From Polyangium mundeleinium (GTDB taxonomy: Bacteria > Myxococcota_A > Polyangia > Polyangiales > Polyangiaceae): 64,000 nt of DNA. Positions 14,324-61,738 of the stretch are shown one piece after another. The stretch's first letter is position 1, and every line of letters begins with the position of its first letter. The stretch is from positions 9,456,501 to 9,520,500 of the forward strand of contig NZ_JAQNDO010000001.1 in the NCBI RefSeq assembly GCF_028369105.1, in the 5' to 3' direction. The notes beneath the pieces were generated by a model. That model was given only the letters and a program-made list of their open reading frames with translations. It did not search any database and was not told where the DNA came from. The translations under genes and the position numbers were made by a program.

Positions 14324-14962
14324 ATGGCCGAAAACCAATACGAGGACCTGGAGCGCGACATCCGACGCCGCCTCACAGAAGGGGACCACGAGAAGGCGAC
14401 GACGCTCGCGATCCGTGGCTTCGGCGCGGAGATTTTTGGTTTCCTGGTCGCGCTCCACCGCGACGAGCAGGACGCGGAGGAGGTCTTTGCCGCCTTCAGC
14501 GAGCGCCTGTGGCGTGATGTGCGCACCTTCCGCGGCGACAGCTCCTTTCGTACCTGGGCTTATGTTTTGGCGCGGCACGCATCGCTCAATTACCGGCGCG
14601 ACACGCGGCGCCGCGAGAACAGGCAGCGGCCCCTGCCCGAGGGATCGGAGCTCTCGGCGATCGTGGAGCAGGTCCGCAGCGAGACGGCTTCGTACCTGCG
14701 CACCGAGCGGCAATTGCGCTTCGCGGCCCTGCGCGCCTCGTTGCCCCCCGAGGACCAGGCGCTCCTCGTGCTCCGCATCGATCGGGGGCTCGCGTGGAAC
14801 GAGCTCGCTCGCGTGTTCCACGAAGGCGACGCGCCGCAGGGCAAGGTCGAGCTTGCGCGCGAGGCGGCGCGCTTGCGCAAGCGATTCCAGCTCCTCAAGG
14901 TGCGGCTCTTCGAGATGGGCAAACGCGCGGGCGTCGTGAGCGAGGATCCGGAGGGGGCTTGA
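14324..14962 (+). CDS. ECF-type RNA polymerase sigma factor
   Basis: The protein has 212 aa. Region 2 is clear: EIFGFLVALHRDEQDAEEVF, then FRGDSSFRTWAYVLARHASL and NYRRDTRRRE. Region 4 (ALRASLPPEDQALLVLRIDR, GLAWNELARVF) is a weak but recognisable sigma-70 r4. No anti-sigma factor is encoded nearby. Instead its 3' end runs into a kinase-TPR gene. ECF sigma factors paired with Ser/Thr kinases are known in myxobacteria and planctomycetes, and phosphorylation of the sigma factor by the neighbour is the simplest model (inference). Confidence 0.88.
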   Translation: MAENQYEDLERDIRRRLTEGDHEKATTLAIRGFGAEIFGFLVALHRDEQDAEEVFAAFSERLWRDVRTFRGDSSFRTWAYVLARHASLNYRRDTRRRENRQRPLPEGSELSAIVEQVRSETASYLRTERQLRFAALRASLPPEDQALLVLRIDRGLAWNELARVFHEGDAPQGKVELAREAARLRKRFQLLKVRLFEMGKRAGVVSEDPEGA

Positions 14963-14964
14963 GG

Positions 14965-17655
14965 TTGCCGTCCAGAGCCGGCGCAGGAGGCGCGCAGGGC
15001 AGAGAGGAGGACGAGCAAGAAGCGCTCGAGGACTCGTCCGTCGGAAGCTTCCTTCGCGAGGTCGCGCTCGCCCCGCCCATCGAGCCGCCCGGCGCAGAGC
15101 GCGATCGCACGGGCGAGACGGTCGGCCACTTCGAACTCACGAAGCTGCTCGGTCGCGGAGGCATGGGGGTCGTGTACGCCGCCTTCGATCGGACCCTGCG
15201 GCGCGAAGTCGCGCTCAAGCTGCTCCGCGCTGGGGCGACCCCGAGCGAGGAGCGGCGCAGGCGGTTCTTGCGGGAGGCCCGTTCGGGCGCGGCCGTGAGG
15301 CACCCGAACATCGCGGCCGTGTTCGAGGCCGGCGAGATCGACGGGGAGGTGTTCCTCGTGATGGAGCGCGTGGAGGGGCGCTCGCTCCGCGCCGTGATGA
15401 ACGCGGCCGGAGGCGCGCTCCCGACGGTGGAGGCGGCGCACATCGCGCGGGAGATGGCCCGAGGCCTCGCCGCGGCGCACGCGGCATCCGTGATTCACCG
15501 CGACATCAAGCCCGAGAACGTGATGATCGGGGACGGCAAGGAGGTGAAGATCCTCGACTTCGGGCTCGCCAAGCTGCGCGACGCGGAGGACGCGCATTCC
15601 GCCTTCGCGTCGACCGACGTCGCCACGCATGAGGGCCGCCTCCTGGGAACGACGAGCTACATGTCCCCCGAGCAGGCGCGCGGGCTCTCGGCGGATGCCC
15701 GCTCGGATGTGTTCGCGCTCGGGGTCGTGCTCTTCGAGATGCTCGCGGGCGCGCGGCCCTTTCGCGGGGCAACGACGACGGATGTGCTCGCGGCGATCCT
15801 TCGTGACGCGCCGCCGCCGCTCCCGTCACGAGGCGCTGCTCGTGACCTCGCGAGCGTCGTCATGCGCTGCTTGGCGAAGGAGCCGAGCGAGCGATATGCG
15901 GACGCGGGCGCGCTGCTCGCCGCGCTCGAAGCCGCGCCGCTGCGGACACCACGACGACCGCGCATGGCCGTCCTCGCCCTTCCGGTTGCCGCGACGGCCC
16001 TGATCGCCGCGTGGTTCTCGCTCCACGCGCCTCCTTCACGCGCGCCGGAGCCGAGCGCCCCCTCGCCCGCGCCGCGCCCGACCGCGATCACCGATCTTCC
16101 GCTCCCTTCCTCCAGCAGCACCGGGGCCATCGACGCTTACAAGGTCGCGCTGCAGGCCTTCCGTGATGCGAACTGGGGGCAGGCGCAGGCGAGCCTGCGC
16201 AAGGCGATCGAGCTGGATCCCACGCTCGCCGCGGCGCATCTCCGGCTCGCGATCGTGCTGTCGCCCCCGGGCCGCGTCCTCCGCATGTCATCTTCGCTGG
16301 AAGCACGCGCGGCCTATCGCGAGGCGACGCGGCTCCGCGGCTCGCTCACGCCCCGCGACCGCGCCCTTCTTTCGGCCTTGGAGCCCATGCTCGGCGCCGA
16401 TCCGCCGGATATGACCGCGGCATCACGAAAGCTCGCCGAGCTCGGCGAGCTTTCCCCTGGGGACGCCGAGATCTTCCACCTCTGCGCGGTGTACGCCCTC
16501 GTCGATGACCCTTCGCTTCGGCTCGCGGCGGCGCGGCGCGCGGTCGAGATCGATCCCGGGTTTGCCGATGCATGGCAAGCGCTCGCCCAGACGCTCGCGG
16601 GCAAAGAGGATCTGGAGGGCGCAATGGCGGCGCTGGAGCGCTGCGCCGCCGCCGCACCGATGGCGACCGACTGCTGGTTCGAGCATGCGCTCATCGAGAC
16701 CGAGCTCGGCCGGTGCGCCGACGCAGAGGCGCACCTCCGGCGCGCGACGAGCGACCCGCAGGCCCTTGCGCAGTATTTTCGGATGCGGGCCAGCATGCTC
16801 TACGCGCTCGGCAAGCCGCGCGAAGCGGTGGCCGAAGTGCTACGGCAGGTGTGGCCCCGGCTCGATCCGACCCAGGTCGCGTGGCGCGACGAGACGGCGG
16901 ACCGCGCGAACCTCGCGGCTGCGTACGGGGATTTCGAGGAGGCGAGGGCGCACGCGCGCGAGGGCCTCCGCGAGGTCGACGGCCATCCGGCGCTCACCGC
17001 CCACGCGCCCTTTGCGCTGCTGCTCGCCGAAATCGAGCTGGAGACCGGGCGCGTGAAGGAGGCGGCGGCCGTGGCGACGGATTTCCTCCGGCGGCATGAG
17101 GGATGGCAGCTCGGCAGGGTGCTCGACGACCCCAGCGTCTACCTATCGCGTATCGCCGCGCGAGGTGGGGCGATCGCGGAAGGCGACGTGCGTGCGCGCA
17201 GGGACGCCTGGTACGGAGTTGCATTGCGGAGCGCGTCGAGCGCGGACGACAGGACGCGCGCATGGGATCTTGCGTACGTCGCGGGCATCGAGCGAGAAGA
17301 CGAGGCCCTCGAAGCGCTCTCCGCGCGGCCCACGGACGTCCCGCGGCTCGGCGTATCCCAGGGGTTCGACGCAGGCATAGGCCGCGTTCTCTGGCTCGGC
17401 GGCAAGCGGGAGGAGGCGCATCCCTTCTTCGAGCGCGCCTTCAGGCGCTGCAGCCGCTTCGAATGGATCATGTCGAGCATGCGCGCGGATCTGCTGTACG
17501 GCCGCGCCCTCGAGGCGCGTGGTGCTCACGACCGCGCGTGCCAGGCCTTCGCCAGGATCCTCGCGCGCTGGGGCGAGGCCAAGCCGCGCTCGGTCACGGC
17601 CGAGGAGGCGAGGAAGCACGCCCGGGCGCTCGGCTGCGACGCCGGCCCGCCGTAA
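14965..17655 (+). CDS. Serine/threonine protein kinase with C-terminal TPR region
   Basis: The protein has 896 aa from a TTG at 14965, about 10 nt after GGAGG. A TTG at 14959 overlapping the sigma stop (TTGA) is the alternative, and an upstream ATG at 14794 would overlap the sigma gene by 169 bp and is unlikely. Kinase motifs are GRGGMGVVY, VALK, HRDIKPENVMI with Asp180, DFGLAK with Asp198, and SPEQARG. One TM helix (VLALPVAATALIAAWFSL) starts near residue 334. About 500 extracytoplasmic residues are helical repeats of TPR type (e.g. AQASLRKAIELDPTLAAAHL, AVEIDPGFADAWQALAQTLA). It is coupled to the ECF sigma gene, and the TPR part is a likely protein-interaction sensor. Confidence 0.88.
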   Translation: MPSRAGAGGAQGREEDEQEALEDSSVGSFLREVALAPPIEPPGAERDRTGETVGHFELTKLLGRGGMGVVYAAFDRTLRREVALKLLRAGATPSEERRRRFLREARSGAAVRHPNIAAVFEAGEIDGEVFLVMERVEGRSLRAVMNAAGGALPTVEAAHIAREMARGLAAAHAASVIHRDIKPENVMIGDGKEVKILDFGLAKLRDAEDAHSAFASTDVATHEGRLLGTTSYMSPEQARGLSADARSDVFALGVVLFEMLAGARPFRGATTTDVLAAILRDAPPPLPSRGAARDLASVVMRCLAKEPSERYADAGALLAALEAAPLRTPRRPRMAVLALPVAATALIAAWFSLHAPPSRAPEPSAPSPAPRPTAITDLPLPSSSSTGAIDAYKVALQAFRDANWGQAQASLRKAIELDPTLAAAHLRLAIVLSPPGRVLRMSSSLEARAAYREATRLRGSLTPRDRALLSALEPMLGADPPDMTAASRKLAELGELSPGDAEIFHLCAVYALVDDPSLRLAAARRAVEIDPGFADAWQALAQTLAGKEDLEGAMAALERCAAAAPMATDCWFEHALIETELGRCADAEAHLRRATSDPQALAQYFRMRASMLYALGKPREAVAEVLRQVWPRLDPTQVAWRDETADRANLAAAYGDFEEARAHAREGLREVDGHPALTAHAPFALLLAEIELETGRVKEAAAVATDFLRRHEGWQLGRVLDDPSVYLSRIAARGGAIAEGDVRARRDAWYGVALRSASSADDRTRAWDLAYVAGIEREDEALEALSARPTDVPRLGVSQGFDAGIGRVLWLGGKREEAHPFFERAFRRCSRFEWIMSSMRADLLYGRALEARGAHDRACQAFARILARWGEAKPRSVTAEEARKHARALGCDAGPP

Positions 17656-21130: not shown

Positions 21131-21305
21131 GTGAACGACACCCTAGAGCATCCAATGGTCCGATGCTCGGAAGAGCGCTTCGCGTTCTTCCCTCGGCTCC
21201 TCCTCGGGACAAAGGAGGAAACCTGGAGCATCGAGCGGTCGCAAACCGAGCGATGTTCTAGCAACGGCGTCGCGGGTCTGTCGAGGATCGTTCGATACGG
21301 GCACG

Positions 21306-21321
21306 CGGCTCGATCGAGCCG
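21306..21321. repeat. Perfect 16-bp palindrome next to the 40-bp palindrome
   Basis: CGGCTCGATCGAGCCG is its own reverse complement. It shares the CGAGCC end with the larger palindrome and sits 5 bp to its left, consistent with a second dimer site. Confidence 0.75.
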
Positions 21322-21326
21322 TCGTT

Positions 21327-21366
21327 GGCTGGATCGTTCGAGCCACGTGGCTCGAACGATCCAGCC
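21327..21366. repeat. Perfect 40-bp palindrome, candidate enhancer (UAS)
   Basis: The left arm GGCTGGATCGTTCGAGCCAC is followed immediately by its exact reverse complement, with no mismatch and no loop; the centre is CACGTG. The half-site GGATCGTTCGA occurs again in direct orientation at 21285-21295. The centre lies about 100 bp upstream of the sigma54 promoter. Confidence 0.9.
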
Positions 21367-21433: not shown

Positions 21434-21449
21434 TGGCACGCAAGTTGCT
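21434..21449 (+). promoter_or_regulatory. Sigma54 (-24/-12) promoter of the NRPS operon
   Basis: TGGCACGCAAGTTGCT matches the consensus TGGCACG-N4-TTGCW at every fixed position, with GG at 21435-21436 and GC at 21447-21448. A transcript would start near 21460, about 90 nt before the NRPS ATG at 21551. The encoded sigma54 activator lies directly upstream in the opposite direction. Confidence 0.85.
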
Positions 21450-21550
21450 GACTGGATGAAGCTGGGCCGGACCGTTCGCGTCGCGTCGTTCGAACCGCTC
21501 ATATTGTGAGGAGTGACCCCGACACCACGCGCTGCGAGAGGTAACGAGCG

Positions 21551-24500
21551 ATGGGCCGGTGCATCCATGCCTCGTTTCAAGAGCAGGCCGCGCGCACGCC
21601 GGACGCCGTTGCCCTCGTTTGCGAGGACGAACGGTGGAGCTACCGTGCGCTCGCGGTGAGGGCCCACGCGCTCGCCCGTCGACTGCGATCCATGGGGGTC
21701 GAGCCGGGCGTCCGGGTGGGGCTCTGCATGGACCGGTCGCCGGAAATGGTGCAGGGAATCCTCGGAGTTCTCGAATCCGGCGGCGCATACGTGCCACTCG
21801 ACCTCGCTCATCCGGCCGAACGCATCGCGTTCATGCTCGAGGACACGAAGGCGCCCGTGCTGGTGACGAAGGCGCACCTTTCCTCCCGCCTCGCGGCGCA
21901 CACGCCCCACGTCGTCCTCCTCGACGAAGAGCTCGACGTGGCGCGCGACGACACGAGCGGGCCGCCACCGGACCTCGCAGCGCCCTCGGATGTCGCCTAC
22001 GTGATCTACACCTCGGGCACGACAGGAAAACCGAAGGGCGTCCAGATCACCCACGAAAACCTCTCGCATTATGCCGAGGCGCTCTCGTCGGTGCTCGGCA
22101 TCGAGGCCGCAGATCGTTATCTGCACACCGCGTCGTTCGGGTTCTCGTCGTCCGTGCGTCAGCTCTTCTTGCCCCTCTTGCGCGGGGCAACGTCGGTGAT
22201 CGCCACCTCGGATCAACAGCGCTCGCCGAAGGAGCTCTGGTCGGCCGTGCGGAGGCACGAGGTCACCGTCCTGGATGTCGTCCCCTCGCATTTCCGCGCC
22301 CTGAACCTCGCGCTTTCGGAGCACCCCCCCGCCGCGCGGGCGCAGAGCGTCGATCCGCACCTCCGCATGATCCTGTCGGCGAGCGAGCCACTCTCGTCCG
22401 ACGTTCCTCGCGCATTCCGGGCGCTCGCCGGGGATCGTGTCGTCGTCGTCAACATGTTCGGCCACACAGAGACGAGTGGCATCGTGACGACCCATCGCGT
22501 CCGAGGGGACGAGCCGCTCGGCCGCGGCGTGCCGCTCGGTGTGCCCTTGCCGCGCACGCGCGTGCACGTGCTCGACGCCGATCGGCGGCCTGTGCCCGTC
22601 GGCGCCGAGGGCGAGATCCATATCGGCGGCCCAGGCGTCGCGCGTGGATACCTGAATCGCCCGGAGCTCGACCGGGAGCGATTCTCGTCCGATCCCTTCA
22701 CCGACGAGCCCGGCGCCCGTCTTTACCGCACCGGCGACATCGGTCGCGTCGGCCCCGACGGCCTCCTCGAGTTCGTCGGTCGGATCGACCACCAGGTCAA
22801 GATCCGCGGGTTCCGGATCGAGCTCGAGGAAATCGAGGCCGCGCTTTCGGCGCACCCCGCTGTGCGCGCTTGCGTGGTGCTCGCCGAGGAGCGCGCGCCC
22901 CGAGACGCGCGCCTCGTGGCGTACGTCGTGCCCGAGGGCGGCGAGCTCGGCCTCCGAGCCCTGCGAGAGCACGCAAAAGCGGCCCTGCCCGCGTACATGA
23001 TTCCTGCGGTGTTCGTCCCCCTCGACGCATTGCCTCGAACGCCGAACGGAAAAGTGGATCGGAGGGCGCTGCCGCCGGTCGGGGACGCGGAGGCGGCGGG
23101 GTCTTCGGGCTACGTGGCGCCCGTGACGAAGACGGAGACGTTGCTCGCCCAGCTCTGGGCCGAGGTCCTCGGGCTCGAGCGCGTGGGCCTCCACGACGAC
23201 GTCTTCGATTGCGGCGGCCATTCTCTCTCGGCGACGAGGGTCGCGAGCCGGCTCGCGTCCTCGCTGGGCGTCGAGGTCCCGATTCGCACCCTGCTCGAAG
23301 CCCGCACCCTCGCGGCGCAGGCGCGGGCCATCGACGCCGCGGGCACCTCGCCGCTCGGCGCGCCGATCACGAGGGTCGATCGATCGCGGCGGCTTCCGCT
23401 CTCGTTCGCCCAGGAACGGCTGTGGTTCCTGGAGCGCCTCCACCCTGGCTCGGCGCAATACAACGTCCCCTCGGCGCTTCGCCTGCGCGGCAAGCTCGAC
23501 GTCGGGGCTTTGCAAGCGGCGCTCGACGCGCTCGTCGCCCGGCACGAAAGCCTGCGCGTCGCCCTGCACGAGGACGAGGCCGGCCCCTTCCAGGTCATCT
23601 CCGCGGCAGGCGACGTGGAGCTCTCGATCGAGCGTGTCCCGGACGAGGCGGCGCTGCGCGAGCGCCTCGCGCGAAAGGTGGATCGACCCTTCGATCTCGC
23701 CGAAGGGCGGCTCCTGCGCGCCTCGGCCTTCGCGCTTTCCGACGAGGACCACGTGCTCCTCGTCGAGGTGCATCACGTCGCATTCGACGGTTGGTCGGCG
23801 GGCATTCTGATGCGCGAGCTCGCCCGGGACTACACGGCGCTCGCCGCCGGCCGGGCGCCCGTATCGCTGCCGCCTGGCATCGATTACGTCGATTTCGCGG
23901 TCTGGCAGCGGTCATGGCTCTCGGGCGACGCCCTCGAACGTCGCATGCCGTACTGGCGGGACAACCTCACCGGGGCGGAGGCGCTCGATCTGCCGGCCGA
24001 TCGTCCAAGGCCGTCCGTTTCGTCGGGCCGAGGGGGGTGGTTCTCCGTTCGATTCGACCACGCGCTCGGCGCGGGCGTCGATTCGCTCGCGCGTGCCTTG
24101 GGCGTGACGCCCTTCATGCTGCTGCTCGCGGCCTTCGCCGTGGTCCTCTCGCGCCACGCAGGCCAGGACGACATCGTCATCGGCACCCCCGTCGCGGGCC
24201 GCCATCGCGCCGAGCTCGAAGGGATCATCGGGTTCTTCGCCAATACGCTCGCGCTTCGCATGGACCTCTCCGGCGATCCGACCGTCCTCGAGCTCCTCGG
24301 GCGCGTCCGCCGCACGACGCTCGACGCATACACCCACCAGGACGTACCCTTCGAGAAGGTCGTCGAGGCGCTCCGCCTGCCGCGCGACGGAGCTCGCACG
24401 CCGCTCGTCCGGGTCATGTTCGTCCAGCAGGCGGCAACCGAGGAGCCGCCGCGCATGGGCGAGCTCTCCGTTGCGCCGTGGCCCGTCGCGAGGAGCACGG

Positions 24501-26551
24501 CGAGGTTCGATCTGACGCTCTCCCTGGAGAGAGCGCCGGAGGGGTACCGCGGCGGTGTCGAGTACGATGTCGATCGATTCGAAAGCAGCACCATCGCGCG
24601 CCTCTGCGGTCACCTCGAGCAAGCGCTCGCGCAGATGGTCGCGGCGCCCGGAGCTCGGTTGTCCGAAATGGATATTCTCCCACCGGACGAGCGCCGGAAG
24701 CTCGTGCTGGCGTGGAACGAAACGACGACGGGGGGGCCTCCCGCCGCGTGCGTCCACGACCGGTTCCGGGCATGGGCGACGCGCACGCCGGACGCCGTTG
24801 CGTTGCATTTCGACGGCGACGGGGCCGAGCAGACCCTCACGTACGGCGCGCTGAAGGAGCGCGCGACGCGGCTCGGCCGCCACCTGCGAGCGCTCGGCGC
24901 CGGACCCGAGACCGTGGTCGGGCTCTGCCTCCCGCCCTCCATCGAGCGGATCCTCGGGCTCCTTGCGATCCTCGAGGCAGGCAGCGCCTATCTCCCGCTC
25001 GACCCGGCCTACCCGCCGGAGCGGCTCGCCTTCCTGCTGGAGGACGCCCGGCCGCCCCTCGTTGTGACCTGCGCGCGGAGCCAGGCGCGCCTCGCCGGGT
25101 ATCGTGGGCATATCGTCGTCCTCGGAGCGGAAGACGCGGCGAGCGACGCGGCCTCGACGGACCGAGAAGGCAAGGAGAGCCAGGCCGACGCGCACGACCT
25201 CGCCTATCTCGTCTATACCTCGGGCTCGACGGGCAAACCCAAAGGGGTGCTCGTGGAACATCGGGGGCTCGCGAATGCGATCGACGCGACGATTCGCATG
25301 TTCGAGGTGACGCCCGCGGATCGCGTCCTGCAGCTCGCGTCACCGAGCTTCGACGTCGCGAGCCTCGAAGTCTGGATGGCGCTCGCTGCGGGCGCGACGC
25401 TTTACCTCGGCACGCGCGACGAGCTTTCCCCCGGCGACCCGTTGCGGGCCTTCCTCGCGCGCCACGCCATCACCATCGTCTCGCTCACGCCGTCGACCCT
25501 CGGCGCGATGTCCGTCACCGATCTCCCCGCGCTGCGCCTCCTCAATTTGGGAGGAGAGACCTGCGGACCGTCGCTCGCGCGGGCGTGGGCGAGCCCGGGT
25601 CGCCGCCTCGTCAACTCCTATGGTCCCACGGAGGCGACGATCTGGTCGACGGCGGCATGGATCCAGGATCCCCACGAGCCTTCCCTCATTGGTCGCCCCA
25701 TCGCGAACACGCAGGTCTACATCCTCGATCGGCGGGGACGGCTCGCGCCGATCGGAGTCCCCGGCGAGCTTTGCCTGGGCGGGGTGGGCGTCGCGCGGGG
25801 ATATCTGAACCGGCCGGAGCTGACCGAGGAGCGGTTCGTCCACGACCCCTTCAGGGAAGGTCGACTCTACCGGACGGGTGATCTCGCTCGATATCGCGAG
25901 GACGGCACGATCGAGTTCCTCGGCCGCATCGATCGCCAGGTCAAGATTCGCGGGTTTCGCGTCGAGCTCGGCGAGATCGAGGCCGCCCTCTCGGCGCACC
26001 CCGGCGTGCAGGACGCGGTGGTCGTCGTCCGCGAGGATCGGCCCGGCGATACACGGCTCGTGGCGTACGTCGTCCCGAAAATGCCCGGCGTCGAGGCGGA
26101 GCTCCGGCCGTATCTCGCGAGCCGCCTGCCCGATTTCATGGTGCCCTCCGGGTTCGTCCCGCTCTCCGCGCTCCCGCTCGGCGCCCATGGCAAGCTCGAC
26201 CTCCGCGCGTTGCCCGATCCCTCCTCGATGCTCCCCGAGCGGACAAATGGGCTCGTATCGCCTCGGGGTCCCACGGAGGCGACCGTCGCGCGGATCTGGC
26301 GAGAGGTGCTCCGTGTGGGGGAAATCTCCGTGCACGACGATTTCTTCTCGCTTGGGGGGCATTCTTTGCTCGCCACGCAGATCATCGCCCGGATTCGCGA
26401 AGCGCTCGGCGTGAGCCCGTCCCTGCGCTCGCTTTTCCACGAGCCCACCGTCGCCCGGATGGCGGAGCAGATCGAGGCGCTCCGCCTCGCCCGCGACCTC
26501 GCGCCGCCCGCGACCGCACCTTTGGCATCGCACGAGGAGATTTCGTTGTGA
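21551..26551 (+). CDS. Non-ribosomal peptide synthetase, A-T-C-A-T (loading module plus module 1)
   Basis: The protein has 1666 aa, and the ATG follows AGAGGTAACGAGCG. Domains are A1 (8-505; YTSGTTGKPKG, PNGKVDRRAL), T1 with phosphopantetheine Ser558 in GGHSLSAT, C (614-1040; HHVAFDG active site), A2 (1067-1550; YTSGSTGKPKG, NSYGPTEATIW) and T2 (LGGHSLLAT, about 1600). No C domain precedes A1, so this is the initiating synthetase. A1 is unusual: its A4 core reads SFGFSSSVRQLF, putting Ser where the alpha-amino-binding Asp235 normally is, and its A5 core is NMFGHTETSG instead of NxYGPTE. The starter may therefore not be a normal alpha-amino acid. A2 keeps Asp (SFDVASLEVW). There is no epimerase domain. 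The stop overlaps the radical-SAM start. Confidence 0.95.
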   Translation: MGRCIHASFQEQAARTPDAVALVCEDERWSYRALAVRAHALARRLRSMGVEPGVRVGLCMDRSPEMVQGILGVLESGGAYVPLDLAHPAERIAFMLEDTKAPVLVTKAHLSSRLAAHTPHVVLLDEELDVARDDTSGPPPDLAAPSDVAYVIYTSGTTGKPKGVQITHENLSHYAEALSSVLGIEAADRYLHTASFGFSSSVRQLFLPLLRGATSVIATSDQQRSPKELWSAVRRHEVTVLDVVPSHFRALNLALSEHPPAARAQSVDPHLRMILSASEPLSSDVPRAFRALAGDRVVVVNMFGHTETSGIVTTHRVRGDEPLGRGVPLGVPLPRTRVHVLDADRRPVPVGAEGEIHIGGPGVARGYLNRPELDRERFSSDPFTDEPGARLYRTGDIGRVGPDGLLEFVGRIDHQVKIRGFRIELEEIEAALSAHPAVRACVVLAEERAPRDARLVAYVVPEGGELGLRALREHAKAALPAYMIPAVFVPLDALPRTPNGKVDRRALPPVGDAEAAGSSGYVAPVTKTETLLAQLWAEVLGLERVGLHDDVFDCGGHSLSATRVASRLASSLGVEVPIRTLLEARTLAAQARAIDAAGTSPLGAPITRVDRSRRLPLSFAQERLWFLERLHPGSAQYNVPSALRLRGKLDVGALQAALDALVARHESLRVALHEDEAGPFQVISAAGDVELSIERVPDEAALRERLARKVDRPFDLAEGRLLRASAFALSDEDHVLLVEVHHVAFDGWSAGILMRELARDYTALAAGRAPVSLPPGIDYVDFAVWQRSWLSGDALERRMPYWRDNLTGAEALDLPADRPRPSVSSGRGGWFSVRFDHALGAGVDSLARALGVTPFMLLLAAFAVVLSRHAGQDDIVIGTPVAGRHRAELEGIIGFFANTLALRMDLSGDPTVLELLGRVRRTTLDAYTHQDVPFEKVVEALRLPRDGARTPLVRVMFVQQAATEEPPRMGELSVAPWPVARSTARFDLTLSLERAPEGYRGGVEYDVDRFESSTIARLCGHLEQALAQMVAAPGARLSEMDILPPDERRKLVLAWNETTTGGPPAACVHDRFRAWATRTPDAVALHFDGDGAEQTLTYGALKERATRLGRHLRALGAGPETVVGLCLPPSIERILGLLAILEAGSAYLPLDPAYPPERLAFLLEDARPPLVVTCARSQARLAGYRGHIVVLGAEDAASDAASTDREGKESQADAHDLAYLVYTSGSTGKPKGVLVEHRGLANAIDATIRMFEVTPADRVLQLASPSFDVASLEVWMALAAGATLYLGTRDELSPGDPLRAFLARHAITIVSLTPSTLGAMSVTDLPALRLLNLGGETCGPSLARAWASPGRRLVNSYGPTEATIWSTAAWIQDPHEPSLIGRPIANTQVYILDRRGRLAPIGVPGELCLGGVGVARGYLNRPELTEERFVHDPFREGRLYRTGDLARYREDGTIEFLGRIDRQVKIRGFRVELGEIEAALSAHPGVQDAVVVVREDRPGDTRLVAYVVPKMPGVEAELRPYLASRLPDFMVPSGFVPLSALPLGAHGKLDLRALPDPSSMLPERTNGLVSPRGPTEATVARIWREVLRVGEISVHDDFFSLGGHSLLATQIIARIREALGVSPSLRSLFHEPTVARMAEQIEALRLARDLAPPATAPLASHEEISL

Positions 26552-28617
26552 ATGACCACGTGAAGACGAGCAAGCCGTACGCGATCAAGCTGATCAACAT
26601 GCCGTTCGCGGCGGAGCATTTGCCGTCGCTCGCGCTCACGCAGCTCCGATCCGTCTTGCGACGCCAGCTCGGCGAGCGGGTGCACGTCGAGATCTGCTAC
26701 CTGAACCTCGACGCTTCGCGCCGGCTCGGGGCCATTTACCACGAAATCGAGGACTCGATGGAGCACCTCCACACGGGCCTCGGCGATTGGCTCTTTCGCT
26801 CCCTGGCGTTCCCGGACGCGAACGACAACGTCGACGAGTACTTCCAGCGCTGTTATGCGCGGAAGACCCCGGAGGTCCAGGCCCTCCGGGCGCGGGTCGA
26901 CGCACTCCGCGCCGAGCTCGACAGGATCCTCGACGAGCTGCTCGAGAGCTACCGATTGCACGAGGCAGATCTCGTGGGGTTCAGCTCGATCTTCATCCAG
27001 AACATGGCGAGCCTCGCCATGGCCGGCAGGATCAAGGCGCGCAATCCGCGGGTCGTCACGGTGATCGGCGGCCCGAACTGCGAATACCCGATGGGCGCGG
27101 TGATGGTCGAGGAGGCGCCCCAGATCGATTTTGCCTTCTCCGGCCCCGGCCTGAAGAGCTTTCCCGCGTTCGTCAAGAACATCCTCGACGGGAGACCGGA
27201 GGAGAATCACCGGATCAACGGCGTCATCTCCCGCGAGAACACCGGCTCGTTCGTCGATCGGGGCGCGAAGCTCGAGATCGAGGAGCACCTCGTGAAGTCC
27301 GGCGCGTTTTTCCCGTCGAAGCGGGTCAAGCAGCTCGACGTGGTGCAGGACCGGCGCCGCCCGCGCCTCCAGCACGTGGGCGAGGAGCTGCCGCTCGACG
27401 ACGACGTCGAGCTCGATTACGACGATTACCTCGCCGCCTTCGAGGCGAACAAGCCGGCGCACGCGGACAAGCCGACGCTGCTCGTGGAGACGTCGCGCGG
27501 CTGCTGGTGGGGCGAGCGCTCGCATTGCACGTTCTGCGGACTGAACGACCTGACCCTCGGGTACCGGGCGATGGCGGCGGACCGAGCGGTGCGGCAATTC
27601 GAGCGGCTCTTCCGGTATGCCGGGCGCGCGTCCCGCATCATGGCGGTGGACGTCATCATCCCGAAGGAGTTCCTCGAGAACATGCTGCCGCGGCTGCGCA
27701 CGCCGCCCTCGATGACGATCTTCTACGAGGCGAAGAGCGATCTGAGCGAGGAGAACGTCCAGGAGATGGCCCGGGCGCGCGTCCTGACCATCCAGCCCGG
27801 CGTGGAGGCGCTCGCGACGTCGACCCTGAAGCTGCTCAAGAAGGGCAGCACGGTCTTCCAGAACATCCTCCTGCTCAAGCGCTGCGCGATGTACGGCATC
27901 GTGCCCGCCTGGAACCTCCTGCTCGGGATGCCGCGCGCCGACGAGGAGATGTACCGGCGGTACGCCGCGATCATCCCGCTCCTCATGCACCTGCCGCCGC
28001 CCTCGGACGCCCTCCAGGTGCGCTTCGACCGCTTCAGCCCCTACTTCACGAACGCGGAGGAGTATGGCCTGAAGCTCGCGCCGATGGAGCATTACGGGAT
28101 GATCTACCCGTTCCGCCCGGAAAAAATCGACGACATGGCGTATTTCTTCAAGGACGCGAACTACGAGGCGCCGTATTTCGTCCACCTCGCCCAGTGGTTC
28201 ACGACGATCAAGGACCTCGTCGCGACCTGGAGAAACCGCTGGCCCGAATTCGAGCCGGAGGGGCGCGCCGAGCTCCACGTCGAGAGGCGCGGGGACGAGC
28301 TCGTGATCCGCGATTCTCGTTCGGGCCGGAGGATCGAGCACGTGATCGCGCCTTCGACCTGGTCCGTGCTCCTGGCGTTCGAGAAACCCGCGCCGCTCGA
28401 GCGCGCTGCCGCCGAGGTGCGGAAGACGCTGCCCGAAATCGACATGGAGCGCGAGATGGAGTTCCTCGTGAGCAAGGAGCTCGTCTTCCAGGAGGGCGAG
28501 CGCTTCATCAACCTCGTCTTGCCGGGACGCGCGCCGCTCCGGCCGGACGAGGACCTCCGCCGGGGGTGGAACTCGCCCGCCGCGCACGCCGAGCTGCGCA
28601 CCGTCCTCTCGCTGTAG
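26548..28617 (+). CDS. Cobalamin-dependent radical SAM protein of the RiPP C-methyltransferase type
   Basis: The protein has 689 aa from a GTG at 26548 that overlaps the NRPS stop (GTGA), with GAGGAG 8 nt upstream. A B12-binding Rossmann-like region lies near 140-225 (DLVGFSSIFIQNMASLAMAG, VVTVIGGPNCEYPMG). The iron-sulfur motif is ETSRGCWWGERSHCTFCG, with Cys319, Cys327 and Cys330. This CX7CX2C spacing, instead of CX3CX2C, marks the 'RiPP maturation radical SAM C-methyltransferase' group (TIGR03975-like). A C-terminal winged-helix-like region (VIRDSRSGRRIEHV, EFLVSKELVFQEG) is also kept. Family knowledge suggests methylation of an unactivated carbon. Here it sits between NRPS genes with no precursor peptide visible, so its substrate is probably an amino acid or the carrier-bound peptide (inference). 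Confidence 0.87.
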   Translation: MNDHVKTSKPYAIKLINMPFAAEHLPSLALTQLRSVLRRQLGERVHVEICYLNLDASRRLGAIYHEIEDSMEHLHTGLGDWLFRSLAFPDANDNVDEYFQRCYARKTPEVQALRARVDALRAELDRILDELLESYRLHEADLVGFSSIFIQNMASLAMAGRIKARNPRVVTVIGGPNCEYPMGAVMVEEAPQIDFAFSGPGLKSFPAFVKNILDGRPEENHRINGVISRENTGSFVDRGAKLEIEEHLVKSGAFFPSKRVKQLDVVQDRRRPRLQHVGEELPLDDDVELDYDDYLAAFEANKPAHADKPTLLVETSRGCWWGERSHCTFCGLNDLTLGYRAMAADRAVRQFERLFRYAGRASRIMAVDVIIPKEFLENMLPRLRTPPSMTIFYEAKSDLSEENVQEMARARVLTIQPGVEALATSTLKLLKKGSTVFQNILLLKRCAMYGIVPAWNLLLGMPRADEEMYRRYAAIIPLLMHLPPPSDALQVRFDRFSPYFTNAEEYGLKLAPMEHYGMIYPFRPEKIDDMAYFFKDANYEAPYFVHLAQWFTTIKDLVATWRNRWPEFEPEGRAELHVERRGDELVIRDSRSGRRIEHVIAPSTWSVLLAFEKPAPLERAAAEVRKTLPEIDMEREMEFLVSKELVFQEGERFINLVLPGRAPLRPDEDLRRGWNSPAAHAELRTVLSL

Positions 28618-28637
28618 CGAATTCGAGAATCGAGACC

Positions 28638-31600
28638 ATGGATACCCTGATCGCGCTGCTGACCGAGGTCCGCAAGAAGGACATCAAGCTCTGGGTGGAC
28701 GGGCCGGACCTCAAGGTCTCTGCCCCGCCCGGGGCCCTCACGCCGGAGCTCATCGGCGCCCTCAAGACGAGAAAGCCCGAGATCATCGAGTTCTTGCGCT
28801 CCTCCGGGAGCTCCTCTTCGTCCGGCGGGCCCGTCCCCGTTCCCCGCGGCGGCCCGCTGCCGGCCACGTTCGGGCAGCAGCAGCTATGGGTCCTCGATCA
28901 GCTCGGGTATCGAACCGTGTATTCGATGCCCATCGCGGTCGAGCTCGCCTCCGCACTCGATGTCTCCGTGCTCCGTCGGTCGCTCGACGCGATCGCACAG
29001 CGGCACGAGGGATTGCGCACGACGTTCGTCCAGGTGGAGGGAGAGCTCCGCCAGACCATCCGTGATCCCGCAGAGGTGCCGCTGATCCAGCGTGATCTGC
29101 GGGCGCTCGATCCGACGGCGCGAGAGGCCGCCGTGCACACCGCGATCGAGGAGGAAATGGGAAGGCCGTTCGATCTCGCGGACGGCCCGCTCTTCCGCGC
29201 CTTGCTCCTGACGATCGGCGAGGGCCGATCGATCCTCATGCTCACGCTGCACCACATCGCCTCGGATGGCTGGTCCATCGGGGTGCTCACGCGCGAGCTC
29301 TCGGCGCTGTACGGTGCATTCGTCGCCGGAGCGCCTTCGCCCCTGCCGGCGCTCCCCATTCAAATGGCCGACGTCGCGGTCTGGCAAAGGGAGCGGCTGC
29401 GGGGAGAGGCGCTCGCGGAGGAGACGCGGTTCTGGCGGCAGCGGCTCGAGGGCGCGCCGACGCTCCTCGACCTTCCCATCACGCGGGAGGTCGCAGAGGA
29501 CGAGGCGTTGCCCACCCAGCCGCGCGGGGACCGGCTCGATTTCCGCATCGACGCGGAGACGACACGAGGGCTGCGGAAGGTCGCCGAGGCGAACGGCGCG
29601 ACGCTGTTCATGACGTTGATGGCCGCCTTCCAGGTCCTGCTCGCCCGCACCTCCGGGCAGGACGATCTGCTCGTGGGCACGCCCGCCGCGAACCGGAGCC
29701 ACCAGGCGCTCGAAGGCCTGATCGGTTACTTCGTCAACACCGTCGTGCTGCGCGCGCGGTTCGGCGACGATCCGACGTTCGTCGATTTCCTCTCGCGATC
29801 GAGGGAGGACACGCTCCTCGCGTTCGAGCACCAAGGCATGCCCTTCGAGAGGCTCGTCGAGGCGCTCGGGGCAGAACGTGTCCCGCACAGAAACCCCCTC
29901 GTGCAGGTGCTCTTCGCGCTCCAGAACGCAGGGAGCGTCGACCTCTCGCTGCCGGGGATCAGGTCCACGCGCGTCGCGCTGCCGACGCTCGCCGCGCGCA
30001 TGGATCTCGAGGTCGACGTCCTCGAGGCGGGCGTCGAGCTCGAGGGCTTCTGGGTCTACAACCGGGATCGCTTCGATCGCGCGGCGATGGAGCGTCTGGT
30101 GGCATCGTTCCAGGCGCTGCTCGCGGGAATCGCGGCGGATCCGCGGCGGCGCGTCTTTGATCTCCCGCTGGTTCCTCCGGACGAACGCCGGACGATCCTC
30201 GTCGCGTGGAACGACACGGCCGCGGCGCTGCCACCCGAGCCCGCCCTGCACCGGCTCTTCGAGGCGCAGGCGGCGCGGACGCCGGACGCCCTGGCCCTCG
30301 TCCACGACGGTCGAGCGTCGCGCCAGAGCCTCACGTATCGCGCGCTGAACGAGCAGGCGAACGCGCTCGCGCACCAGCTCGTCGCGCGGGGGGTTCGTCC
30401 GGACACCCCCCTCGGGATCCTCGCCGAGCGCTCGGTCTCGATGGTGGTCGGCATGCTGGCCGCGTGGAAGGCCGGCGGCGCGTACGTGCCGCTCGACCCG
30501 GGGCTGCCGCCGGCGCGCCTCGCGTTCCTGCTCGAGGACACGCGCGCGCCGCTCGTGCTCGCGCAGGCGCATCTCGCGCAGCGCCTCTGCGCGGACGCGC
30601 GCGCGGCCACGGAGGTCGTCCTCCTCGACGATCCCGCCACGATCGCCACGCTGCCCACGCACGATCTCGGGACGGAGGCGGGCGCTGGCCACCTCGCGTA
30701 CGTCATGTACACCTCGGGTTCCACCGGGCAGCCCAAGGGCGTGATGATCGAGCACGGCGCGCTGCTCGCACACGCGTCGCAATACACGCGCTTCCACGGC
30801 CTCTCGCCCGCGGATCGCGTGCTCGCGCTCTCGGCGTTCCATTTCGACGCGTCGGTCGAGCAGATCTTCCCGGCGCTCACCGCGGGCGCCTGCGTGATCC
30901 TGCCAGACTGGGAGCTCGAGGCGCGCGTGTTCTCGGAGAAGCTCGCGGAGCTCGAGGTGACGCTGCTCGACACGTCGGGCGCGCACTGGCGGGCGCTCGT
31001 GGACGCTTGGATCGAGGAGCCGCGGCTCGCCGAGGCGCTCCGCCTGCGGAGCCTCGTCGTCGGCGGCGACGTGATGCCGGCGGAGGTCGTCGCGCGGTTC
31101 CGGAAGACGGGGATCGCCGGGCGCGCGCGCCTGTTCAACGTCTACGGGCCGACCGAGACCACGGTCGCGGCGACCGTGTACGAGGTGACGGGCGACTTCG
31201 ACGCGCGCCTGCCGCGCATCCCCATCGGCAAGCCGCTCGCGAACCGTACGGCGTACGTGCTCGATCGGCGCCTCCGGCCCGCGCCGATCGGCGTGCCGGG
31301 CGAGCTCTTCCTCGGCGGGCGGGGCGTCGCGCGCGGGTACCTGAACCAGCCCGCGCTCACCGCGGAGAAGTTCATCGAGGTCGCGTCGCTGCCCTTCGCC
31401 GCGGAGCTCTCCGACGCCGCGAAGACAGGCCGCGTCTACCGCACGGGTGATCTCTGCCGGTGGCTCCCCGACGGCACGCTCGATTTCGTGGGCCGCACGG
31501 ATCACCAGGTGAAGATCCGCGGCTACCGCGTCGAGCTCGGCGAGATCGAGGCCCAGCTCCGAAGACAAACCAACGTCCGGGACGCGGTGGTGGTCGTGCA

Positions 31601-32123
31601 CCAGGTCGGCCAGCACCGCTCGCTCGTGGCCTACGTCGTCGCCGCGGAGGGCCTCGCAGAGAGCGAGCTCGAAGGGGAGCTCGGCGCCGCGCTGCGCAAG
31701 ACGCTGCCCGAGCACATGATCCCCTCGCGGTTCCTCCCGCTCGCGGAGATCCCGCGGGTGACGACCAGCGGCAAGGTGGATCAGGCGGCGCTGCCCGATC
31801 CGAACCGCAGCGCGGCGGCGACCGAGGCCGCGCCGCGTACGGAGACCGAAGAGCGGGTGGCCGTGATCTTCCGCGAGATCCTCCGGCGCGCGGACATCGG
31901 CATCCACGACAGCTTCTTCGACGTCGGCGGGCACTCGCTGCTCGCGACGCAGCTCGTCCTGCGGGTGAACCGCGCGTTCTCTCTCGATCTCCCGCTCCAG
32001 GCGGTCTTCGAGAGCAGCACGATCGCGGAGCTCGCGGCCTCGATCGATCGCACGCGGCTCGCGCAGGGCCTGCTCACGACGGCGACGTCGGGCGTCGAAA
32101 GCGAGGAAGAGGGCGAGCTGTGA
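28638..32123 (+). CDS. Non-ribosomal peptide synthetase, TubC-C-A-T (module 2)
   Basis: The protein has 1161 aa, with the ATG at 28638. It starts with a TubC-type N-terminal docking domain (MDTLIALLTEVRKKDIKLWV, to about residue 57). Then come C (72-500; HHIASDG at about 205), A (537-1050; YTSGSTGQPKG, FDASVEQIF, NVYGPTETTVAA) and T (VGGHSLLAT at about 1098). An acidic tail (SEEEGEL) may be the donor docking end for the next TubC domain. By eye the pocket residues include Glu239 and Asp278, an acidic pocket that could suit a basic side chain; this is only a suggestion. The stop overlaps the next NRPS start by 4 bp (GTGA). Confidence 0.95.
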   Translation: MDTLIALLTEVRKKDIKLWVDGPDLKVSAPPGALTPELIGALKTRKPEIIEFLRSSGSSSSSGGPVPVPRGGPLPATFGQQQLWVLDQLGYRTVYSMPIAVELASALDVSVLRRSLDAIAQRHEGLRTTFVQVEGELRQTIRDPAEVPLIQRDLRALDPTAREAAVHTAIEEEMGRPFDLADGPLFRALLLTIGEGRSILMLTLHHIASDGWSIGVLTRELSALYGAFVAGAPSPLPALPIQMADVAVWQRERLRGEALAEETRFWRQRLEGAPTLLDLPITREVAEDEALPTQPRGDRLDFRIDAETTRGLRKVAEANGATLFMTLMAAFQVLLARTSGQDDLLVGTPAANRSHQALEGLIGYFVNTVVLRARFGDDPTFVDFLSRSREDTLLAFEHQGMPFERLVEALGAERVPHRNPLVQVLFALQNAGSVDLSLPGIRSTRVALPTLAARMDLEVDVLEAGVELEGFWVYNRDRFDRAAMERLVASFQALLAGIAADPRRRVFDLPLVPPDERRTILVAWNDTAAALPPEPALHRLFEAQAARTPDALALVHDGRASRQSLTYRALNEQANALAHQLVARGVRPDTPLGILAERSVSMVVGMLAAWKAGGAYVPLDPGLPPARLAFLLEDTRAPLVLAQAHLAQRLCADARAATEVVLLDDPATIATLPTHDLGTEAGAGHLAYVMYTSGSTGQPKGVMIEHGALLAHASQYTRFHGLSPADRVLALSAFHFDASVEQIFPALTAGACVILPDWELEARVFSEKLAELEVTLLDTSGAHWRALVDAWIEEPRLAEALRLRSLVVGGDVMPAEVVARFRKTGIAGRARLFNVYGPTETTVAATVYEVTGDFDARLPRIPIGKPLANRTAYVLDRRLRPAPIGVPGELFLGGRGVARGYLNQPALTAEKFIEVASLPFAAELSDAAKTGRVYRTGDLCRWLPDGTLDFVGRTDHQVKIRGYRVELGEIEAQLRRQTNVRDAVVVVHQVGQHRSLVAYVVAAEGLAESELEGELGAALRKTLPEHMIPSRFLPLAEIPRVTTSGKVDQAALPDPNRSAAATEAAPRTETEERVAVIFREILRRADIGIHDSFFDVGGHSLLATQLVLRVNRAFSLDLPLQAVFESSTIAELAASIDRTRLAQGLLTTATSGVESEEEGEL

Positions 32124-35100
32124 ACGGCGACGTGGAGGCCCTCCTCAGCGAGCTCTCCGGGCTCGGCGTGCGGTTCTGGCTGGAGGACGATCGCCTGCGC
32201 TTCCGGGCGCCGCAGGGCGCGCTGACGCCCGCGCTGCGCGAGGCGATGGCCGCGCGGAAGGCGGAGATCCTGTCGCTGCTCCGGCAAGGCCTCTCCCGCA
32301 AGGAGAGCGCGCCCCCGCTCCGGCCGGTCCCTCGTACGGGCCCTTTGCCGCTCTCGTTTGGGCAGCAACGGATCTGGTTCCTCGACCGCATGGGCGGCGG
32401 CACGGCCTACAACATGCCGCTCTCGATGCGGCTCGAAGGCCCGCTCGACGTGGAGGCGCTCGCGTCGAGTTTGTCCGAGATCGTGCGCCGCCACGAGGGC
32501 CTGCGCACCACGTTCGTCGTTCGCGACGACGAGCCCACGCAGGTCATCGAGCCGCCGGTCAGGCTCACGCTCCCGCTCGTCGATCTACGCCACCTCTCCG
32601 CCGCCGAGCAGGAGTTCGAGGTCACGAGGCGCGTGCAGGCCGAGGGGCAAAGGCTCTTCGATCTCACGGCCGATCCGCTGCTCCGGGCCTCGTTGCTCCG
32701 CTGCGCGGACGGGCCCGCGCCCGTGCACGTCCTGCTCGCGACCATGCATCACATCGCCTCGGACGGCTGGTCGATGGGTGTGTTCCGGCGCGAGCTCGCA
32801 GCGCTCTACCGCGCGTTCGTCGAGGGGCGGCCCTCGCCGCTGCCGGAGCTCTCCCTCCAGATCGCGGACGTCGCCGTCTGGCAGCGCCGCTCGCTCACGC
32901 CCGAGGTCCTCGCGCCGCACCTCGCGTACTGGAAGAAGCAACTCGAGGGCGCGCCTCCGCTCTTGCAGCTCCCCGCCGATCGGCCGCGGAGGCCGGGCGC
33001 GCCCTTCGAGTGCGGCGTCCTCCGGTTCCGGATCGAGCCCCAGCTCTTCGGCGCCGTGCGCGCGCTCGGGCAGAGCGCGGGCGCGACGCCCTTCATGACC
33101 TTCCTCGCCTCATTCCAGGTGCTGCTCTCGCGTTGCGCGGGCCAGGACGACGTGGTCGTCGGCACGCCCATCGCCGGCCGCAACCGCGAGGAGCTCGAGC
33201 CGCTCATCGGCTTCTTCGTCAACAGCCTCGCGCTGCGGGCCGATCTCGCGGACGACCCGACGTTCCTCGAACTCCTCGCGCGGGTCCGGAAGGACACGCA
33301 GGACGCATTCGCGCATCAAGAGCTGCCCTTCGAGAAGCTCGTCGAGGCGCTCTCGCCCGAGCGCGATCCGAGCCACCACCCGATCTTCCAGGTCGCCTTC
33401 GCCTTCCACGACACGGCCTTCGCGAACACGGACGAGCTCGGCCTCCCGGGCCTGCGCGAGACGCCGCTCCAACCGCGATCGCAGCAGGCGCGCCTCGATC
33501 TCGAGATGCACCTCGACCCGCGCGACGGCGGCCTGGACGGGCTGCTCTTCCACGACACCAACCTCTTCGACCCGAGCACCGTGGAGCCGCTGATCGACCG
33601 GTTCCGCACCTTGCTCGAAGGAATCGTCGCGGATCCACGGAGGCGGGTGAGCGATCTGCCGCTGCTCCCCGCGGCCGAACGACATCGCGTGCTCGTCGAC
33701 GTCAACCCGACGAAGACGGATCTCCCGCTCTCGCCCTCGGCAGGCGCGCTCGTCGAGGCGCAGGCCCGGTCCACGCCCGACGCCGTGGCCGTGCTCTTCG
33801 ACGATGGGATCACGCCGCGCTCGCTCACGTACCGCGAGCTCGTGGAGCGGGCCTCGAAGCTCGCGAGCCACCTCCGCTCGCTCGGCGTCGGTCCGGACGA
33901 TCTCGTGGGTCTTTGCCTGGATCCATCCCTCGATCGGATCGTGGGCCTCGTCGGCATCCTCCTCTCGGGCGGCGCGTACGTGCCGCTCGATCCGGCCTAT
34001 CCAGCCGAGCGCCTCGCCTTCATGCTGGACGACGCGCGGCCGCGCGTCGTCGTGACGAACGAGCGGCTCGCCGAGGTGCTGCCGGTGCGCGACGCGCGGT
34101 TCGTCTTGCTCGATCGCGACGCCGCCGTCATCGACGCCGCGCAGCCTTGCCGCCCCGCGCGGGGAGCTCGTCTCGAGGACCTCGCGTACGTCATCTACAC
34201 CTCCGGCTCCACGGGCAAACCCAAGGGCGCGCTGCTCACGCACCGGGGGCTCGTGAACGTCGCCGAGGCGCAGCGACGCATGTTCGAGCTCGGGCCCGAC
34301 GATCGCGTGCTCCAGCTCGCGTCGCTCAGCTTCGACGCCGCCACCTTCGAAACCTTCCTGGCGCTCGCCTCGGGCGCCACGCTCTGCCTGGGCGCGCGGG
34401 CCGAGGTTGTACCGGGCGAACCCTTGTCGAGGTTCCTCGCGCGGCACCGGATCTCGATGGTGACGCTGACGCCCTCGGCGCTCGCCGCGCTGCCCGTCAC
34501 GGCTCTGCCGGAGCTCCGCACGATCACCGTGGCGGGCGAGGCGTGCACGCCGGCCCTCGTCGAGGCCTGGGCGCGCGGGCGGCGCTTCTTCAACCTCTAC
34601 GGCCCGACGGAAGCGACGATCTGGTCGACCGCGATGCGTTGCGTGGAGCCGGCCGACGCAACGCGCATCGGCCGGCCGATCCCGAATACGCAGGTCTACG
34701 TGCTCGATCGCCGCAAGAACCCCGTGCCCGAGGGCACGCCGGGCGAGCTCTACCTCGGCGGCGTGGGCGTCGCGCGCGGCTACTTGAACCGGCCCGAGCT
34801 CACCGAGGCGCGGTTCGTCCCGGATCCCTTCGGCGAAGGAATCCTCTACCGCACGGGGGATCTCGTCCGCCTGCGTGATCGCGGCGAGCTCGAGTTCCTC
34901 GGCCGCGTCGACGATCAGGTGAAGATCCGCGGGCACCGCGTCGAGCTCGGCGAGATCGAGGCGGCGCTCGGCGCGCATCCGGAGGTGCGGGAGGTGGTCG
35001 TCGTCGCGCGGGAAGATCGGCCCGGCGACAGGCGGCTCGTCGCCTACGTGGTCCCGGACGCGACCTCCGCGGAGGCGCAAGCGGGCCACGTCGAGCAATG

Positions 35101-40789: not shown

Positions 40790-40806
40790 CTGCTTCTGGA
40801 GGTCCC

Positions 40807-42522: not shown

Positions 42523-42538
42523 CCTCCCGCGGAATACC

Positions 42539-60652: not shown

Positions 60653-61738
60653 ATGAGCCCCAAAGAACGCGGGGACACGACCGGCGTCCTCGTCCTCGAC
60701 AAGCCCCAAGGCCCCACGAGCCACGACGTCGTCGGCAAGCTGCGGCGCGCCCTCGGCATGCGCCGCATCGGCCACGCCGGCACGCTCGATCCGATGGCGT
60801 CGGGCGTGCTCGTGATGCTGCTCGGCGAGGCCACGAAGCTCGGGCCTTACCTGACCGCGCACGACAAGGCCTACGAGGCGCGCGTGGTCCTCGGTCGCGG
60901 CACGGACACGCTCGACGCCGAAGGCGCGGTCACGGACGAGGCGCCGCTGCCGGCGTGGCTCGAAGACGAGATCACGCGGTTCACACAGGAAGGCGCGAGC
61001 GCCGTTCTCCAGGGGATCACGGCCGCGCTCGATCGGGAGCGCGCGCGGACCGAACAAGCGCCGCCTGCGTACTCGGCCATCAAGGTCGACGGAGCGAAGA
61101 GCTACGACCGGGCGCGGCGGGGCGAGGTGGTGGAGCTGCCTGCGCGTCCGGTCGCCGTGCGCGCGATCGAGCTCCGCGGCGCGGGGATCCTCGAACCGGG
61201 GAAGCTCGCGTTCCTCGACGTCTCGCTCGACGTGAGCAAGGGTTATTACGTGCGCTCCCTGGCGCGTGATCTCGGCGCGGCCCTCGAGGTGCCCGCGCAC
61301 CTCGGCGCGCTCCGCCGCACGCGGAGCGGGCCGTTCGGTCTCGACGTCGCGAACGTGCTCGACGCGCCCGCCGACGCCCTGCGCGCGGCCGTGGTGCCCC
61401 TCGCCGCGGCCGTTCGTCTGGGCCTGCCCACGGCCGTGCTCACGGCCGAGGGCGCGGTACGTGCATCCCAGGGCAAACGCCTTGGAGAAGCGGATTTTTC
61501 GGTGCCGCCCCCGCGCGAAACGGAGATCCAGGAAAGCGCCACCCATCGTCCGGACGAACCTTCCGAATCCGAAGAATCGGCAGCGAGCGCCTGGCTTTCC
61601 CCGGAGGGCCGTCTGGTCGCCGTGGGGAAATGGAATCATGATGGTTACGTGGTTCAACGCGGCTTCACGGATGTTCCCGCAGGCCGCGGGGTCGAGACGG
61701 AAGAGCACGTCGCGTCTGGTCGTCGCTTTCCGCCCTGA
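60653..61738 (+). CDS. truB: tRNA pseudouridine(55) synthase
   Basis: The protein has 361 aa. The catalytic motif is GHAGTLDPMASGVLVMLLGE with Asp46, and KPQGPTSHDVV and GYYVRSLARDLG are standard TruB segments. It makes pseudouridine 55 in the T-loop of tRNA. The C-terminal 80 residues (PUA-like end plus an acidic tail DEPSESEESAA) are longer than in E. coli TruB. The ATG follows the PlsC stop by one base. Confidence 0.96.
   Translation: MSPKERGDTTGVLVLDKPQGPTSHDVVGKLRRALGMRRIGHAGTLDPMASGVLVMLLGEATKLGPYLTAHDKAYEARVVLGRGTDTLDAEGAVTDEAPLPAWLEDEITRFTQEGASAVLQGITAALDRERARTEQAPPAYSAIKVDGAKSYDRARRGEVVELPARPVAVRAIELRGAGILEPGKLAFLDVSLDVSKGYYVRSLARDLGAALEVPAHLGALRRTRSGPFGLDVANVLDAPADALRAAVVPLAAAVRLGLPTAVLTAEGAVRASQGKRLGEADFSVPPPRETEIQESATHRPDEPSESEESAASAWLSPEGRLVAVGKWNHDGYVVQRGFTDVPAGRGVETEEHVASGRRFPP

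Follow-up and report, generated by a model that had tools for sequence, protein, structure and literature searches.

A predicted sigma-54 promoter, a perfect palindrome and a divergent FHA-GAF activator gene at an NRPS operon of Polyangium mundeleinium

Sigma-54 activators and myxobacterial natural products

The activators of peptide clusters in myxobacteria are poorly known. Control of natural-product genes by sigma-54 and enhancer-binding proteins (EBPs) has already been shown in Myxococcus. Ma, Welch and Garza (2021) mutated promoters, examined an nla28 mutant and assayed binding in vitro, and found that sigma-54 promoters drive natural-product genes of M. xanthus; the sites are mostly intragenic, and one predicted promoter, MXAN1603, made little contribution–consensus predictions can include minor promoters (PMC7910581). 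The locus described here lies in the window, which is the whole 64-kb stretch of P. mundeleinium DNA that was analysed. It resembles the Nla28 promoters in having a predicted -24/-12 element with upstream EBP half-sites at natural-product genes. However, Nla28 is a response regulator that acts in trans, mostly at intragenic sites, whereas the candidate EBP in the window is an FHA-GAF protein encoded by the adjacent, divergent gene, and its predicted site is intergenic.

In a survey of PKS/NRPS clusters, sigma-54 promoters were predicted in 124 of 180 (Stevens et al. 2013, PMC3665592). Like the element in the window, those boxes have the consensus and are positioned for transcription of PKS or NRPS genes. 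They are survey predictions, and the portion of the paper available to us names no local activator or enhancer for them, whereas the window has candidates for both. Two EBPs, HsfA and MXAN4899, act on the production of DKxanthene and myxovirescin (Volz et al. 2012, as far as it is summarized in the available portions of PMC4902038 and PMC6971385). They are similar to the candidate in the window, which we call P0001, in being EBPs tied to myxobacterial secondary metabolism; in those portions they appear as shared regulators recovered by DNA pull-down and tied to development and motility, and a cluster-adjacent pair is not described there. FHA-domain EBPs reportedly figure in M. xanthus development, in 2005 work by Jelsbak and colleagues. 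In those proteins, as in P0001, an FHA domain is fused to a sigma-54 activator, and a Ser/Thr phosphorylation input is expected; theirs is a role in fruiting-body development, whereas P0001 has a GAF domain as well, and its gene is divergent from an NRPS operon. The features that would distinguish the present locus are its intergenic site, its adjacent FHA-GAF activator and a predicted enhancer that is both unique and perfect.

Promoter element, activator gene and palindromes

A sequence-only reading of this DNA had proposed that a sigma-54 box matching the consensus at every fixed base lies about 100 bp before the first NRPS codon. We found that TGGCACGCAAGTTGCT agrees with TGGCACG-N4-TTGCW at 12 of 12 fixed positions on the plus strand, with the GG (21435-36) and the GC (21447-48) separated by ten bases, and that 101 bp lie between the end of the box and the NRPS ATG (Table 1), so both parts of the proposal hold. 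No other 12/12 match is present in the window, and the shorter pattern TGGC-N7-TTGCW (TGGCNNNNNNNTTGCW) also has a single occurrence in its 64 kb (shuffle expectation 0.38). Counting from the -12 position at C21448, we predict that transcription starts at A21460, giving a leader of 91 nt whose RNA structure is no more stable than that of shuffled sequences (z = 0.24).

Table 1. Coordinates of the genes and predicted regulatory elements in the window.
Feature	Position	Strand	Basis or remark
Ser/Thr protein kinase with TPRs	14794..17655	+	Pfam Pkinase, 157.6 bits; candidate FHA input
P0001, FHA-GAF-AAA+(GAFTGA)-Fis-type HTH EBP, 613 aa	19289..21130	-	Pfam; divergent from NRPS operon
Site A, GGATCGTTCG-N12-GGCTCGATCG	21285..21316		Centre -159.5; proposed second activating site
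Site B, perfect 40-bp palindrome GGCTGGATCGTTCGAGCCACGTGGCTCGAACGATCCAGCC	21327..21366		Proposed main upstream activating site
Sigma-54 -24/-12 promoter element TGGCACGCAAGTTGCT	21434..21449	+	Predicted from sequence
Site C, GGACCGTTCG-N12-CGAACCGCTC	21469..21500		Centre +24.5, in predicted leader
First NRPS, 1666 aa, A-PCP-C-A-PCP; first gene	21551..26551	+	Pfam; GAGAGG precedes ATG
B12-binding radical SAM C-methyltransferase	26548..28617	+	TIGR03975, 500.5 bits (cut-off 281.85); overlaps NRPS stop
Second NRPS, TubC_N docking-C-A-PCP	28614..32123	+	Pfam on longer ORF 26787-32123; start approximate
Third NRPS	32120..40789	+	Pfam on ORF 31460-40789; start approximate
Carbamoyltransferase, NodU-like	40807..42522	+	Pfam Carbam_trans_N/C on ORF 39580-42522; weak NodU similarity; co-directional
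Cyclic-peptide-type ABC exporter	42473..44227	+	TIGR01194, 335 bits (cut-off 286.2); co-directional

In the whole genome (13.25 Mb) there are five exact matches to TGGCACG-N4-TTGCW, as compared to two for a reversed-pattern control, so the exact box by itself is only weakly enriched (about 2.5-fold). Exact boxes are rare, yet the match alone is no proof of function. The chance of finding an exact box on the right strand of a given 200 bp is about 4e-5 (5 / 26.5 Mb x 200). Among the other four genomic matches (L001, L002, L003 and L005), L001 and L003 are just upstream of a correctly oriented gene and L005 is inside a called ORF. The L001 box, TGGCACGAGCGTTGCT (G000:C1:501889), is 24 bp ahead of an ATG, and the gene encodes a lipoprotein-like signal sequence.

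The genome encodes one RpoN (Sigma54_DBD match, 219.8 bits). Between the EBP and NRPS genes we found no sigma-70-like promoter by consensus and no terminator-like site. An IHF-type bend between the enhancer and a sigma-54 promoter is common but not required, and the IHF-type site WATCAANNNNTTR is absent from the intergenic region when up to one mismatch is allowed.

The divergent neighbour had been read as a GAFTGA-bearing activator, and its domain structure agrees with this. P0001 has Pfam matches to FHA (residues 23-85, 68.8 bits), GAF (135-270), Sigma54_activat, AAA_lid_14 and HTH_8, with the sigma-54 AAA+ domain spanning residues 296-463 and the Fis-type HTH residues 566-606. Walker A (GESGTGKE) is at residue 324, GAFTGA at 371 and Walker B (GTLFLDEIGD) at 390, so the protein has the motif-bearing AAA+ domain and the DNA-binding domain of a sigma-54 activator, and its FHA domain has GR at 25, SRRH at 40 and SANG at 60. 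By Pfam it is an FHA-GAF protein without the receiver domain of the Nla28 type. Because an FHA domain reads phosphothreonine, P0001 is likely to be controlled by a Ser/Thr kinase. The kinase gene in Table 1 is separated from the EBP gene by one gene, and at several related loci Ser/Thr kinase genes are directly beside the EBP gene.

From their spacing and direction, the rightward genes at 21551-44227 appear to form one operon. The third NRPS has a TubC_N domain, two C and two A domains, a methyltransferase, PCPs and a thioesterase. TIGR03975 is a RiPP-maturation family, and its member here sits within an NRPS operon. Within the order, a relative of the radical SAM gene is present in just one further genome (G005). 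It belongs to a different cluster (L131/L132), which is the second to pair NRPS genes with a relative of this C-methyltransferase. We rejected that cluster as support for the promoter: it is a different cluster, its box is only 10/12 and lies 278 bp upstream. On the stretches examined it has no EBP of the P0001 type.

The intergenic region between the EBP gene and the NRPS ATG is 420 bp long. It contains a perfect palindrome (site B) that is its own exact reverse complement, symmetrical through its centre with no loop, and centred at -113.5 relative to the predicted +1. This is the longest gap-free perfect palindrome in the approximately 1.15 Mb that we scanned (the window and related DNA). 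The sequence-only reading had not mentioned it. Its core, GGATCGTTCG-N12-CGAACGATCC (a 10-N12-10 motif), is unique in the genome: there are no further copies with 0-1 mismatches, the runner-up differs at 2 positions and is intragenic, and each of the five sites with 2-3 mismatches begins within a called gene. A genome-wide search at up to 3 mismatches thus revealed no wider palindrome regulon. Rfam matches on the palindrome are to miRNA models only, far under their cut-offs and meaningless.

Two weaker sites have the same spacing as the site B core. Site A matches it at 16 of 20 positions (4 mismatches) and is the second-best match in the 64 kb; site C matches at 15 of 20 (5 mismatches) and is third-best, tied with an unrelated site at 61328. 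Sites A, B and C are therefore three of the four best core matches in the 64 kb, a significance that is somewhat overstated by the fact that A and C were spotted by eye before scoring. Three sites of the same geometry within 216 bp, including a perfect one, are the trace that would be expected of a dedicated dimeric regulator. The upstream activating sequence of a sigma-54 promoter usually takes the form of an inverted repeat at a distance of roughly 80-200 bp, and, judged on sequence only, the -113.5 palindrome and the weaker copy at -159.5 correspond to this description. Site C might possibly be a feedback operator.

The activator clade in related genomes

In a search for EBP homologs at class level (318 genomes), P0001 falls in a clade of 11 members with 50-60% identity, present in 8 of the 318 genomes, beyond which full-length identity drops to about 35-40%. 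We compared 20 kb around each of the ten members other than P0001. Three of the 11 (those in the window, L072 and L073) have a divergent neighbour, and all three have an 11-12/12 box facing it, but L072 and L073 are orthologs so the independent cases with a box are two, not three. The remaining eight have an upstream neighbour on the same strand, as checked by homology. For seven of these we scanned the 600 bp upstream of the EBP gene in both directions and found no box that reached 10/12; for the eighth, the paralog L070 in the same genome as P0001, the 20 kb contain a single 10/12 site, and this is downstream of the EBP gene. The same upstream scan of more distant EBP genes also gave no box of 10/12 or better. 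Within the EBP clade, the predicted box accompanies a divergent target.

L072 and L073 come from two species of one genus, and their divergent gene encodes a small Cys-rich secreted protein. Their box, TGGCACGTGGATTGCG (11/12), is identical in both, while the sequence just downstream of it is not conserved, and palindromes of the form TGGTT-N6-AACCA are centred at -107.5 and -139.5/-140.5. The layout of EBP gene, twin palindrome, -24/-12 box and divergent gene thus recurs in two other species. These loci resemble the window in three respects: the EBP shares about 50% identity with P0001, twin palindromes lie upstream at distances of about 110 and 140-160 bp, and the box faces the divergent gene. 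They differ from it in the target gene, the palindrome sequence and the recognition helix. The helix is ITRIMMRRR in the window, where the half-site is GGATCGTTC; ITRIMMKRR at L068-L071, where it is ATCGTTC (the paralog L070 has GGATCGTTC); and ITRQMMRGR at L072 and L073, where it is TGGTT. This is suggestive of recognition helices that vary in step with the palindromes.

At L068-L071 an inverted repeat, GAnCATCGTTC-N9-GAACGATGnTC, is roughly conserved a short distance before the start codon of the EBP gene, and it looks like an autoregulatory operator. The closest ortholog of P0001 (60% identity) is the EBP at 5185-7026 of L064, in genome G036; no NRPS gene is adjacent to it. It has GAFMGA where P0001 has GAFTGA, and with this change sigma-54 activation would be expected to be weakened or lost.

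Proposed mechanism and alternatives

The -24/-12 box is probably a genuine sigma-54 promoter at which transcription of the NRPS operon begins, close to 21460, with the product of the divergent EBP gene opening it. The local activator-promoter pair that was originally proposed is supported by the presence of RpoN, the EBP signatures of P0001, the -113 palindrome and the layout at related loci; it is the best reading of the locus, and a stronger one now than from the box alone. We infer, from sequence features, that P0001 is the one among the approximately 67 EBPs encoded in the genome that would bind the palindrome, and likewise its phosphorylation, the use of the promoter and the extent of the operon. 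Dimers of P0001 would bind the -113 palindrome and the weaker -159 site and oligomerise there, and DNA looping would bring them into contact with the promoter. The GAFTGA loop, with ATP hydrolysis, would then convert the closed complex that RNA polymerase and sigma-54 form at the -24/-12 element into an open one. The trigger is likely to be Ser/Thr phosphorylation via the FHA domain, for which the nearby kinase is a candidate, and the GAF domain may contribute a small-molecule input. The chain would thus run from the kinase to the FHA-EBP on the palindrome, to sigma-54 RNA polymerase, and on to the NRPS operon.

A fuller version, which we put forward tentatively and regard as doubtful, is a self-contained switch in which a neighbouring Ser/Thr kinase controls an FHA-GAF EBP. 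This EBP would have, in essence, one target promoter in the whole genome, reached through a single perfect palindrome, and the copy at +25 would let it shut the operon when it is abundant. All three predicted components, the promoter, the enhancer and the activator, fall inside about 2.3 kb. The model is directly testable, and over-expressing one gene, or locking it in the on state, may switch on a cluster that was not found among the relatives searched.

It is also conceivable, though unlikely, that the sigma-54 promoter is real and its activator is another EBP–for example, a global starvation regulator of the Nla28 type, encoded elsewhere–while the neighbouring EBP and the palindrome serve otherwise. 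The genome has many EBP genes to choose from, and Nla28 acts in trans on several natural-product promoters of M. xanthus (PMC7910581), but a palindrome core that is unique in the genome suits a dedicated local regulator, and the clade pattern links the box to the divergent neighbour of a P0001-type EBP. We consider it quite improbable that the palindrome and the divergent arrangement reflect autorepression or a sigma-70 operator, where the EBP or another dimeric repressor binds to control its own gene, with the -24/-12 match being coincidental. The EBP genes at L068-L071, which have no divergent target, also have inverted repeats just upstream, and site C is within the predicted transcribed leader, but the probability that a correctly oriented 12/12 box would arise by chance in the relevant 200 bp is only about 4e-5, and L072 and L073 keep a box at the equivalent relative place. 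That the palindrome is a terminator, an attenuator hairpin or the remnant of a repeat element, and no enhancer, is very improbable: strong hairpins of similar length are found just downstream of the EBP genes of the relatives L068 and L070, and a degenerate dispersed hairpin repeat (21142-21262) adjoins it, but the palindrome separates the starts of two divergent genes, in a region where no terminator-like site was found, its core is unrepeated in the genome, and its symmetry is loop-free.

The repeat at 21142-21262 has GARCATCG half-sites in common with L068-L071, which led us to consider it as a binding site for the EBP. We rejected this reading: the copies of the repeat are found in a variety of gene contexts that lack strong sigma-54 boxes. 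It is a degenerate, shortened copy of an intergenic repeat of about 165 nt with five hairpins, full copies of which are found, for example, at L077:3149-3321(-) and L010:1388-1560(+). The three loci that we scanned with Rfam gave no match to the repeat. An alignment (A1) with fifteen other copies from the genus has seven base pairs with changes on both sides, and the last hairpin has at least six copies in the P. mundeleinium genome. The repeat could be a mobile hairpin repeat or a structured RNA.
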